Notes under the pieces: generated by a model | Database searches by the model: none | The model's input: only the letters and a program-made list of their open reading frames with translations | What the model was told of the DNA's origin: nothing | Part shown: positions 921-4,364 of the stretch, piece by piece | Position numbering within the stretch: the first letter of the stretch is position 1 | Layout: every line of letters begins with the position of its first letter | From: a virus | Direction: 5' to 3' (one strand) | IMG/VR virus record: IMGVR_UViG_3300046777_001036 | Location: 1-33,390 of that record | Length of the DNA: 33,390 nucleotides | Program-made: the position numbers and the translations under genes

Positions 921-2807
921 CTATCCATATATTTCTTGCCACTGCTCTTGATAGGCAGCGTCGAGGTTAACTGATTGTCTCTTTGACAGTTGAGCACGTG
1001 TGGCCCAACGATTTTCTTTATATCGGTTGGTAAATGATGCAGCCTGCATAAGTTCTTGAACTCGCAAGACTGCAAACCATAGAGCCATAACACAGTCAGT
1101 CTTACCTCTAGTGTTAGGTTTCCATGTCATCAACTGCTGGATAAGGGCTTTAATACCTTCAGAGCCTTCGGTTGATGGGAATTCAATTGTGTTGTTATTC
1201 TGAAACTTACCTTCTCGGACTGTGCCAAAGAAGTTAGACATAGAAGCAACGCCAATGTTTGTGTCCCATTTGTTCTTGCCAGTAAAGTGTGGCTTTAAAT
1301 CACAGCCATACTGGGCAAGCCAGTTACGCAAATCATCATCTAGGGCATAACCTTTTTGGTGTGCGTTAATCTCAACGCGCAATTCATTAGGTTTATACTT
1401 TTGAACAAGTTCTTCAATGGTTGCACGAATCTTCTGCGGTGTAGGCTCTGACATATTAACAGCATCTAGGACATAGATACGGCTATCGGAGGTGTTGTAA
1501 CTAACGACAACAAAGGCTGAGTTGCCCGTCATAGCAGGGTCAAAGCCTATGATTGTATATCCGCGGACATCCATAGGGTGTCCTGCTGCTGAAGCCTTCA
1601 ATGGACCGCGCTTTCGCATGCCATTGATACAACCTTGTACCAGCGGTGCAGGGAATATAGAATCTTCTGCAATATCTTCCTGCTGGTAAACCAGCGCCCA
1701 GGTAGAGGCGGTAACTTCACCGCGACGTTTATTAAGGGCTGGTCCGTCCCACTTAGGATATAAACCACTTTCATTTGGCTCATCATCATCTCCATCCCAA
1801 GGGATGTCAGATTCAGGCCAGAGCGTTACCCAGTCTTTAGGCTTTTCCTTGTACTCCAATACCGCAGGCATTGCCATATAGGTAAAGGGGGACTTGCCGT
1901 TAGACCAATACTTCGGGTCACGTAATTCTTTATAGAAGTCGGTAGCAGCAATACGCGTACCTACAATCAGCAACTTGCCGTTCTTGCCCAGACGGGTGAT
2001 AACTTCCTTCTGCAGCCAGTTGATTTGCTTTTCATACTCATGGGCGTTAGCGGTTGTAATGCAGTCGTCTAGGATAATCAGGTCAGCACGAGCGCCGTAA
2101 ATCTGACCGCCCATACCAAGGGCTTGAATGGTTGGGTCTTTTTCGGATGAATCACGCGCATCGCCACCAAGGTAGACGGTATCAACTTTCCAGGTATCTG
2201 CGTCCTGCTTCCAGCCGCCTTCGGGACCAAAAGTATTTTGCATCTTGGCGTAGCGTGGATGGGACAACCTGTTCTTAACTGAGTATACAAACTCACGTGC
2301 TTTGTTCAACGTCTTAGAGACCACGATGATGCGGACGTTAGGGTTGATAGCGATGCGGTAGGTCGAATAGTTCACCGTGATAACGGTGGACTTGGCATGC
2401 TCAGGGGGTACATTGACCAGCATGCGGGTGGCATCCCCTGGGTCATAAGTCATAGCAGGGTGGAGCCAGGATGGGTCGCGCCCTTCAATCAAGTCAATCC
2501 AGTCCTGATGATGGGCAAATACTCTAGACCCTAGGTATAGTTCTGAGAACTGGGCAAAGGTAATCTCTTCCTTGGGGATACCAAGGGCTTTAAGGGAATT
2601 GGACTTGGCGTCTAGTTTAGCCTGCTCAAGTCGGCGGGCAAAGTCGGCATCTCGCATAATCCAAATGCGGGCAGTATCGGGCTTCTTGCCCACCTTGGCC
2701 ATGGCATTGGAAAGGCTCATCCCCTCGGAGACCATATCCAGCACCTGCTGTTTTTCGGCATTGGCCTTCATTGTCTTGGGGTTAGTTGCCCCCTTTTCGA
2801 ACGTCAT
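921..2807 (-). CDS. terL: Terminase large subunit (TerL)
   Basis: This is the packaging motor ATPase/nuclease, 628 residues. The ATPase domain has a Walker A variant PPEHAKST at about 134-141, a Walker B strand ADLIILDDC at 241-249 and a coupling-type motif IVGTRIAATDF at 281-291. The C-terminal RNase H-like nuclease shows GFDPAMTG at 421-428 (first acidic residue), LRVEINAHQKGY at 476-487 and DCVMALWFAVLR at 571-582. Residues about 18-62 (QQVLDMVSEGMSLSNAMAKV, then KKPDTARIWIMRD) read as a helix-turn-helix like those of small terminase subunits. No separate TerS is visible in the window, so DNA recognition may be built in. It reads leftward from the divergent control region with GGGGG five bases before its ATG, and is followed by two basic-protein genes. 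Confidence 0.96.
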   Translation of the reverse strand: MTFEKGATNPKTMKANAEKQQVLDMVSEGMSLSNAMAKVGKKPDTARIWIMRDADFARRLEQAKLDAKSNSLKALGIPKEEITFAQFSELYLGSRVFAHHQDWIDLIEGRDPSWLHPAMTYDPGDATRMLVNVPPEHAKSTVITVNYSTYRIAINPNVRIIVVSKTLNKAREFVYSVKNRLSHPRYAKMQNTFGPEGGWKQDADTWKVDTVYLGGDARDSSEKDPTIQALGMGGQIYGARADLIILDDCITTANAHEYEKQINWLQKEVITRLGKNGKLLIVGTRIAATDFYKELRDPKYWSNGKSPFTYMAMPAVLEYKEKPKDWVTLWPESDIPWDGDDDEPNESGLYPKWDGPALNKRRGEVTASTWALVYQQEDIAEDSIFPAPLVQGCINGMRKRGPLKASAAGHPMDVRGYTIIGFDPAMTGNSAFVVVSYNTSDSRIYVLDAVNMSEPTPQKIRATIEELVQKYKPNELRVEINAHQKGYALDDDLRNWLAQYGCDLKPHFTGKNKWDTNIGVASMSNFFGTVREGKFQNNNTIEFPSTEGSEGIKALIQQLMTWKPNTRGKTDCVMALWFAVLRVQELMQAASFTNRYKENRWATRAQLSKRQSVNLDAAYQEQWQEIYG

Positions 2808-2905
2808 CTAGCCCCCTAGGTTTGGACAGAATACACCTGCCTTGTAACAGTTATATACAGACTATTGTACAGAGTGAAGAAGGCTTCTAAAAAGACTTCT
2901 GAACT

Positions 2906-2911
2906 ATTATA
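2906..2911 (-). promoter_or_regulatory. Candidate -10 element for the terminase unit
   Basis: On the minus strand this reads TATAAT, a perfect sigma-70 -10 hexamer, about 95 bases upstream of the terminase ATG. The matching -35 position (ACGGAT) is poor, so activity would need an activator or an alternative sigma factor such as the one encoded at 12956-13603. This is a weak call from a single hexamer. Confidence 0.3.
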
Positions 2912-2957
2912 GTCTCTATATATACTTAATCCGTTCAAACAGGTCAAACGAACACTT

Positions 2958-2987
2958 TTGATAGAAATATTTTTAAAAACATATAAA
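2958..2987 (+). promoter_or_regulatory. Candidate plus-strand promoter (TTGATA - 18 bp - TATAAA)
   Basis: TTGATA at 2958-2963 and TATAAA at 2982-2987 each match the sigma-70 consensus at five of six positions, with an 18-base spacer that is almost pure A/T. Transcription would begin near 2994. It would run through the structured region 3046-3510 and on into the genes at 3531 and 4017, ending at the terminator at 4371-4414. It is flanked by the 13-bp repeats. It is the strongest promoter-like match I saw in this region, but there is no experimental support. Confidence 0.5.
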
Positions 2988-3031
2988 AGTCCTGTTCAGA
3001 CTGGGGGTACTATTGTACAGAAATATTTTTG

Positions 3032-3046
3032 GTAGAGATACTCTAC
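3032..3046. promoter_or_regulatory. Operator-like perfect dyad
   Basis: GTAGAG-ATA-CTCTAC is a perfect 6-bp inverted repeat with a 3-base centre. It lies between the predicted start site near 2994 and the structured region, and it abuts a TATAGT hexamer at 3047-3052. It could be a repressor site or a short RNA hairpin. The sequence alone cannot decide. Confidence 0.4.
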
Positions 3047-3510
3047 TATAGTCAGAAACAAATTAAACAATCTGGGGTCTAATAGACCCACAGACTGTTT
3101 AATGCTGACGCTCTATAGTACTGTAGTCTGGAGTGCTAGGCAGACAGCAGTCTAGGCGCAGTAAAAACATATCTGTATGCGCCCAGTTTAAATGCATATA
3201 TAGACTGCGATTGCCTAACTGACAGGCTACCCCATTACAGTTGGAGAAGTATCTCCAAACCTCTCAGCCTGCCGATGGTTGGGCTGGAACTATCTATCTA
3301 TCAGTCGCCTGCATGGTAGCATAGGCGTCAAATCGGCTATCTGCTCTACCTATTCGGCAGAGCAAAACAATAGCCGATTGCTCTCAGCGGGGAATACCCC
3401 GCATCTGCCGAGTCAGCATTTCATGCAGCCTCGCCCCGCATCCAGCCAAAGACTTGGCTGTCTGAATGACATCCCATGCTATCCATTCGGCAACTGACAG
3501 ATAGTCAGTG
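3046..3510 (+). ncRNA. Candidate large structured (ornate) noncoding RNA
   Basis: The stretch contains no convincing gene but an unusual density of helices. An 18-bp imperfect hairpin lies at 3062-3103. A nested stack follows at 3123-3230: GTAGTCTG/CAGGCTAC (one G-U), TAGGCA/TGCCTA, GCAGTCTA/TAGACTGC and GGCGCA/TGCGCC, in order from outside in. Next come TTGGAGA/TCTCCAA (3241-3258), CGCCT/AGGCG (3306-3327), AATCGGCTAT/ATAGCCGATT (3331-3379, with TGCTCT/AGAGCA inside), GCGGGG/CCCCGC (3387-3402), CAGCCAA/TTGGCTG (3443-3460) and ACTGAC/GTCAGT (3493-3509). The loop sequence TCGGCAGA (3354-3361) is perfectly complementary to TCTGCCGA (3404-3411), a potential pseudoknot. A possible closing helix joins 3046-3055 to 3494-3504. 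GOLLD/ROOL-like phage RNAs have this general style, but I cannot claim homology. Exact ends are uncertain. Confidence 0.65.
3062..3103. repeat. Long imperfect hairpin (18 bp stem)
   Basis: The stem is built from ATTAAACA/TGTTTAAT, TCTG/CAGA and GGGTCT/AGACCC, closed by a three-base AAT loop, with one mismatch (A3070/C3095) and one bulge (A3090). No T-run follows on the plus strand, so it is not a classic terminator. It is the first large element of the structured region. If transcribed from the promoter near 2958 it would begin about 65 bases into the RNA. Confidence 0.75.
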
Positions 3511-3530
3511 GATTAGTAAGGAGAGAAAAA

Positions 3531-3932
3531 ATGAACGAAGTACAATACACAGAAGGCGACTCACTCACAGTAAGCAACGTCTGCCCTGAATGTATCGCAC
3601 AAGAACAACTATGCACAGAGTGCGTAGAACTAGCAGACGCCCGACTCACCGACAGAGCGTATGAGTCGGCGTCTGAAGGGAACCTTATGTACAAGCATCA
3701 GTGGCTAATCACAACAGAACCAAGTGGCCATGACTGGACAGACCGAGATGGTGAGTTCAAGGAGCCAGTCGTATTCCTACAGGACGGAGGAGTGTATGAG
3801 GAACTATGGGAGTTGGACGACATGCGCCAGCGTGCACGAGAGACTGAGTGCCAATGGTGCCACATGCTGACCCTCAAAATGTACAACGACTGCCAATCAT
3901 GTGACAAACCACTAGAATCAAACGTAAGATAA
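3531..3932 (+). CDS. Cys-rich putative zinc-binding protein
   Basis: This 133-residue protein of unknown family has four CxxC pairs: CPEC and CTEC near residues 18-31, and CQWC and CQSC near 108-125. They suggest one or two treble-clef/zinc-ribbon sites at the two ends of the protein. The middle is acidic and aromatic (SGHDWTDRDGEF). There is no membrane segment. The ATG follows AAGGAGAG five to six bases upstream. It is the first gene after the structured RNA region and lies in the same predicted transcript. Its codons favour C-ending forms (AAC, GAC, ATC, TAC) more than genes further right, as does its neighbour at 4017. Function unknown. Confidence 0.8.
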   Translation: MNEVQYTEGDSLTVSNVCPECIAQEQLCTECVELADARLTDRAYESASEGNLMYKHQWLITTEPSGHDWTDRDGEFKEPVVFLQDGGVYEELWELDDMRQRARETECQWCHMLTLKMYNDCQSCDKPLESNVR

Positions 3933-3940
3933 CTAAGGCA

Positions 3941-3975
3941 GATAGACCCCCTGTCGCAAGCGGCAGGGGGCTATC
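3941..3975 (+). other. Strong intergenic hairpin without U-tract
   Basis: GATAG-A-CCCCCTGTCG, loop CAAG, CGGCAGGGGG-CTATC forms a 15-bp stem with one G-U pair and one bulge, directly after the stop of the Cys-rich gene. No T-run follows, so it is unlikely to be an efficient intrinsic terminator. It may act as an mRNA stabiliser, a processing site or an attenuator separating the expression of the two genes. Confidence 0.75.
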
Positions 3976-4016
3976 GGCCCAAAGCACGTAATCAACTAAC
4001 TAACAAGGAGAACATC

Positions 4017-4364
4017 ATGAAGAACGAAGTCACAGTAACAGGTACAATCAAGAACATCAAGACATACACCAATGACCGAGGCACAATGCTTACAGGTTGG
4101 TTTGACCAGCGCGACGTATCCCGTACATCAGACGGAACCGCAGACCGCACAGTGTATGTCGTAGGTATGAACATCGTAGCCCTAGACGACAGCACAGTTG
4201 GAGACATCATCGGTGCAAGCCGTGCAGGTACAGAAGTTACCTTGCCTATCACACTCACAGGACGAATGGTCACACGCTTTGACCGCCGTCCAGGAATCGC
4301 ACAGAAAGACCAGCGAGCACCACAGTTGCAGTTGGAAGTGCATGCAGTAGAGGTTCACGCGTAA
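4017..4364 (+). CDS. Putative OB-fold / SSB-like protein
   Basis: This 115-residue protein opens with EVTVTGTIKNIKTYTNDRG and continues with strands such as TVYVVGMNIVA, then EVTLPITLTGRM and QLQLEVHAVEVHA. That alternation of short strands resembles a single-stranded-DNA-binding OB fold, but no diagnostic signature is present and it lacks the acidic C-terminal tip of bacterial SSB. The start follows AAGGAG with good spacing. It shares the predicted promoter and terminator with the Cys-rich gene, and its codons are similarly C-ending. A role coating phage ssDNA would suit a phage that has primase and nucleases, but it is inference. An alternative is another nucleic-acid-binding OB protein. 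Confidence 0.6.
   Translation: MKNEVTVTGTIKNIKTYTNDRGTMLTGWFDQRDVSRTSDGTADRTVYVVGMNIVALDDSTVGDIIGASRAGTEVTLPITLTGRMVTRFDRRPGIAQKDQRAPQLQLEVHAVEVHA

Follow-up and report, generated by a model that had tools for sequence, protein, structure and literature searches.

The window analysed here is the whole of a virus contig (G000) of 33,390 bp. It contains a gap between two divergent genes, terL on the minus strand and an early gene on the plus strand, and this gap holds the structured region whose parts are collected in Table 1. The plus-strand genes of this genome are early and replication genes (helicase, primase, sigma factor), while the structural genes (capsid, tail) lie on the minus strand. 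The early-gene family keeps eight invariant cysteines in CxxC-like pairs, and searches of Pfam, PHROGs and PDB yielded no relatives of the protein. By TerL the nearest catalogued phages are the Planktophila phages E7 and F5 (61% identity), of which E7 is a cultured phage (PMC10202952), followed by Streptomyces phages at about 43% identity; no DNA match to the gap was found among catalogued phages. An earlier, sequence-only reading had taken the region to be free of genes, and indeed none is annotated there: a plus-strand open reading frame of 72 aa (3279-3497) had no evident counterpart at the same place when the ORF lists of the relatives were compared.

Table 1. Features of the terL-early gene interval (window coordinates)
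Feature	Position	Strand	Basis
terL, large terminase subunit	921-2807	-	PHROG 38 match
Conserved RNA-terL spacer carrying repeats and promoter-like motifs	2808-3045		putative promoter function
Whole structured noncoding RNA, approximate extent	3052-3514	-	z -12.3, relatives, terminator-like hairpin
Terminator-like hairpin (3062-3103) and U-rich tail (3053-3061)	3053-3103	-	hairpin scan, RNAalifold
3' helix stack, variable among relatives	3123-3230	-	single-sequence fold; weak support across relatives
Helix P1, 3474-3486 with 3313-3325	3313-3486	-	fold and compensatory changes
Multi-branched core, closed by GUCA/UGAC (3467-3470 with 3327-3330)	3327-3470	-	model alignment, covariation
Helix P5, 3370-3379 with 3331-3340	3331-3379	-	99.6% of cells paired
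Helix P5b, GAAUA loop	3342-3364	-	98.8% of cells paired; changes on both sides in 8/9 pairs
Helix P4	3387-3402	-	changes on both sides in 4/7 pairs
Helix P3, GC-U..A-GA internal loop (GGCUUUAGAC type in relatives)	3407-3435	-	alignment, covariation
Helix P2	3439-3464	-	changes on both sides in 8/8 pairs
5' hairpin P0 (ACTGAC/GTCAGT)	3493-3509	-	MFE fold; variants in relatives
Divergent early gene, 133 aa, cysteine pairs	3531-3932	+	no family or structure match

The dense helices noticed in that reading within 3046-3510 are far beyond chance. RNAfold gave -181.9 kcal/mol (z = -7.80) for the plus strand and -214.1 kcal/mol (z = -12.34) for the minus strand, and on either strand none of 100 dinucleotide-shuffled controls was as stable. 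Scanned in 150-nt windows, the fold signal peaked between about 2960 and 3529, weaker dips appeared at about 3560-3770 and 3860-4070, and the neighbouring genes mostly stayed near zero. Most gaps of the relatives likewise folded better than their shuffles.

Relatives were collected by protein searches (28, 80 and 80 phage loci) and by pattern searches (43 more). In the first protein-search set, terL was found upstream of the divergent gene in 24 loci besides the window, the gap measuring between 583 and 1,971 bp; the remaining four loci were fragments that start inside the gap. Strong DNA conservation was concentrated in the terL-side 240 bp of the gap, and the structured part proved to be a mosaic in which hairpins are inserted, lost and moved among relatives. 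Recognisable relatives were found for window positions 3290-3530. Eight core sequences aligned by MAFFT from sequence alone served to build a covariance model, R1, of the minus-strand core 3311-3486. At E < 1e-3 this model located the domain in 20 of 100 sources (the 8 model sequences counted in); with the cut-off at E < 1e-7, 38 of the 47 loci from the pattern searches contained it, some of these contigs being shared with the earlier set. All strong matches lay on the strand of terL; terL was downstream and an early-gene homologue divergent wherever these were recovered, some contigs being too short to include both genes. A strict descriptor of the domain matched 19 of 102 gaps on the strand of terL, two or three of these relying on a chance GTTA partner, compared with none on the other strand and 1 of 306 shuffles. 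A shortened form of about 66 nt occurs in relatives such as L025, L046, L056 and L099, and in many relatives the modules are arranged differently and the core is absent. Pattern matches in bacterial genomes (L234-L237) were set aside, as no terL or early-gene homologue adjoined them; L235 gave one partial R1 match of 12.9 bits and the other three none. In six loci (L020, L024, L049, L051, L054 and L055) a conserved stretch, GCACCGTAGGAGGACGAGC, absent from the window, follows 3' of the core and carries a ribosome-binding-site-like AGGAGG on the RNA strand. In two others, a tRNA gene on the strand of terL lies between the RNA region and terL: tRNA-Arg(acg) at L043:2501-2573 (-) and tRNA-Trp(cca) at L140:3346-3417 (+).

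The core relatives share one layout on the minus strand, in which P1 leads to the GUCA/UGAC junction and then to P2, P3, P4 and an AAUC..GAUU helix, P5, capped by P5b; the unpaired junction bases are conserved across relatives. In an alignment of 40 distinct sequences fitted to the model (A5), 95.2% of cells were standard pairs and 31 of 43 pairs showed changes on both sides (204 such cells), values none of which was reached in any of 500 shuffles, which take no account of phylogeny. When partners were slid as a control, the paired share fell to 28-38%. Compensatory changes were already visible in the sequence-only MAFFT alignment of the eight, and P1, which lies outside the model, covaries independently (ATAGCAT/ATGCTA, TAAACCAT/ATGGTTTA, TACGCCAT/ATGGCGTA and ATACTCC/GGAGTAT). 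The compensatory change that the helices of the earlier reading called for in related phages is thus extensive, and the 10-bp helix singled out there is real: it covaries and is identical to P5.

The tertiary and closing contacts proposed in the same reading fared less well. Of 40 relatives, just 6 have the 8-bp pseudoknot (3354-3361 with 3404-3411) complete; in the others it is broken without compensation, and it competes with P3 and P5b, both of which covary. A long-range pairing of 3270-3278 with 3483-3492 competes with 5' closing helices kept in relatives; by eye, its 5' partner was not seen in L005, which does have 3270-3278. A closing helix, 3046-3055 with 3494-3504, was kept in no relative inspected, again by eye. 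The stack at 3123-3230 had a mixed outcome: it folds in the single sequence and its inner stem shows a matched change in L005 (GGCGCA/TGCGCC to GGCTCAGT/ACTGAGCC), but most of it is missing from the RNAalifold prediction for 12 relatives. At the 5' side, P0 has an alternative, an outer closing helix formed by 3489-3504 and 3294-3309, and differing yet complementary versions of this region were seen by eye in L017, L043, L048, L054 and others.

A G-C or A-U pair remains a pair on the complement, where most helices therefore look alike; the strand was read from wobble pairs, G.U pairs of a minus-strand RNA appearing as mismatches in the plus-strand fold. Read on the minus strand, A5 contained 58 G.U cells against 5 A.C cells. 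Since the model could favour this result, we added a stem search without strand preference. Restricted to stems with 10 or more Watson-Crick pairs, this search counted 38 cases of A.C on the plus strand (G.U on the minus strand) and 11 of G.T on the plus strand (p = 7e-5); the corresponding figures in coding controls were 11 and 15. RNAalifold on 12 aligned relatives gave a GU:AC ratio of 19:1 over all predicted pairs. Judged by the excess of G.U in A5 and the agreement of the alignment-free stem test, the RNA is encoded on the minus strand, that of terL and the structural genes. The plus-strand RNA of the earlier reading is ruled out by the same statistics (58:5 and 38:11).

These data also bear on a DNA-level origin of the hairpins. 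A replication origin, recombination hot spot or cruciform-rich spacer would fit a hairpin-rich, fast-evolving gap between divergent operons and the repeats and palindromes of the spacer, but strand-specific G.U tolerance and conserved unpaired junction bases point to RNA, and we regard such an element as very improbable.

The 3' end of the RNA was set by the terminator-like hairpin, an 18-bp stem on the minus strand followed by TTTGTTTCT and located about 250 nt before terL; the 5' boundary is provisional. This hairpin also appears in the RNAalifold prediction for the 12 aligned relatives, and some of its pairs have changed on both sides. In this part of the gaps, terminator-like sites numbered 44 on the strand of terL versus 21 on the other, while shuffles gave 7 and 5; a strict terminator scan was positive for only 38 of the 101 loci. 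The hairpin points to a separate transcript some 450-460 nt long. The spacer, which is conserved and promoter-like, separates it from terL and is probably a regulatory region, with a putative promoter function. Within it, CTGTACAATAGT recurs, GTAGAGATACTCTAC forms a palindrome and GTTC..GAAC an inverted repeat. On the opposite side, P0 adjoins the ribosome-binding site of the early gene. The promoter placed just upstream by the sequence-only reading did not stand, as no sigma-70-type promoter lies there on the plus strand, and a search for a sigma-70 promoter serving the minus-strand RNA found none. With the RNA reaching up to the early gene's ribosome-binding site and no promoter detected in between, transcription might begin within the gene itself. 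A TGTGTAT motif within that gene was considered as the RNA promoter and rejected, being explicable by conserved Tyr-Thr codons.

Scanning the window and 20 related loci against all Rfam 15 families turned up one tRNA but no other match; a faint hit to freshwater-2 (17.9 of 49.9 bits) was attributed to chance. With neither GOLLD nor ROOL matched, the earlier judgement that no known class can be named holds, and a search of one literature collection found no paper describing this RNA. GOLLD is a large ornate phage RNA, often near tRNAs, with one conserved and one variable part, and forms an RNA-only 14-mer cage; ROOL, likewise large and ornate, occurs in phages and prophages, frequently close to tRNA islands, and forms an RNA-only nanocage (PMC12286853). 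That study compares GOLLD, ROOL and OLE, whose functions are poorly characterised (PMC12286853). Like GOLLD, the present RNA is large, ornate and composed of a conserved and a variable part. It differs in lying beside terL, with the conserved core in its 5' half, and at Rfam thresholds neither its sequence nor the GOLLD model gives a match. It resembles ROOL in being large and ornate but not in matching its Rfam model, and its modules are exchanged whereas ROOL is one intertwined fold. The tRNA genes of L043 and L140 near the RNA region echo the tRNA neighbourhoods reported for GOLLD and ROOL (PMC12286853).

The best reading is that this large ornate phage noncoding RNA, modular and fast-evolving, forms a class of its own, comparable to GOLLD and ROOL and a member of neither. 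The sequence-only reading had already suggested a large, ornate, unnamed phage RNA, maybe of a new class; its fold and covariation are borne out, while its strand, pseudoknot, closing pairings and promoter had to be given up. We consider it probable that the locus encodes a stand-alone minus-strand noncoding RNA of about 450-460 nt with its own terminator, forming a folded object in the manner of GOLLD or ROOL. Such an RNA would be transcribed separately and end at its terminator some 250 nt before terL. It would fold into a conserved multi-branched core (P1, the GUCA/UGAC junction and P2-P5b) joined to exchangeable hairpin modules, and would most likely act during infection as a folded object, be it a scaffold, an RNA-protein particle or an RNA-only assembly. 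The analysis establishes the structure, its strand, the conservation of the core and the place in the genome; separate transcription, termination at the hairpin, timing and molecular role are inferred. The bias of terminator-like hairpins to the strand of terL, the promoter-like spacer between hairpin and terL, and the tRNA genes between RNA region and terL in two relatives argue for a stand-alone RNA. Against it stand the failure to find a promoter, the 5' side abutting the early gene's ribosome-binding site, the restriction of strict terminator sites to 38/101 loci and the many relatives without the core. More tentatively, the class may characterise a lineage including phages of Planktophila (Nanopelagicales), in which an RNA upstream of terL, built of a core and swappable modules, might form a higher-order RNA or RNA-protein object for late infection or DNA packaging.

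The main rival would assign the RNA to the late operon as a giant 5' leader, in which RNA and hairpin would act as an attenuator or put-like antitermination element deciding read-on into terL and the structural genes. Put and antitermination leaders are structured RNAs upstream of phage operons, on the same strand, and here too the RNA lies on the strand of terL at a conserved position, with a terminator-like hairpin shortly before that gene. A conserved promoter-like spacer, however, separates the hairpin from terL, and unlike put leaders the RNA is much larger and followed by its own terminator-like hairpin; to our knowledge, known attenuators and put elements are smaller and less modular. 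A leader function thus appears rather unlikely. Less probable still is an antisense regulator that would overlap or face the early transcript and control its translation or stability: the RNA region abuts the ribosome-binding site and a start inside the gene is conceivable, but antisense action does not require a conserved multi-branched fold, and the covariation backs structure within the RNA itself. Its position beside terL also recalls the phi29 pRNA, which is tied to DNA packaging, but a packaging-motor part of that kind is highly unlikely given the lack of an Rfam pRNA match, the much larger size, the different fold, and a TerL matching a large terminase family, whereas the phi29 packaging ATPase is of a different type.

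Large ornate RNAs of bacteria and phages fall into few known classes, and the RNA reported here, not described before, shows a rapid natural module exchange that provides a ready-made structure-function series. Planktophila is an abundant freshwater host, and the cultured relatives E7 and F5 could make the RNA testable. In phage E7 (L190) the gap before terL, about 780 nt long, shows some structure and contains two terminator-like sites; since R1 gave no match there, the case for E7 consists of position, fold score and terminator-like sites. If E7 carries the RNA, the function of a large phage RNA could be tested directly in that host. Finally, a smaller second structured spot was observed after the early gene, at 3860-4070 (plus strand, z about -3 to -4), where a hairpin, CCCCCTGTCGCAAGCGGCAGGGGG, is possibly a terminator.
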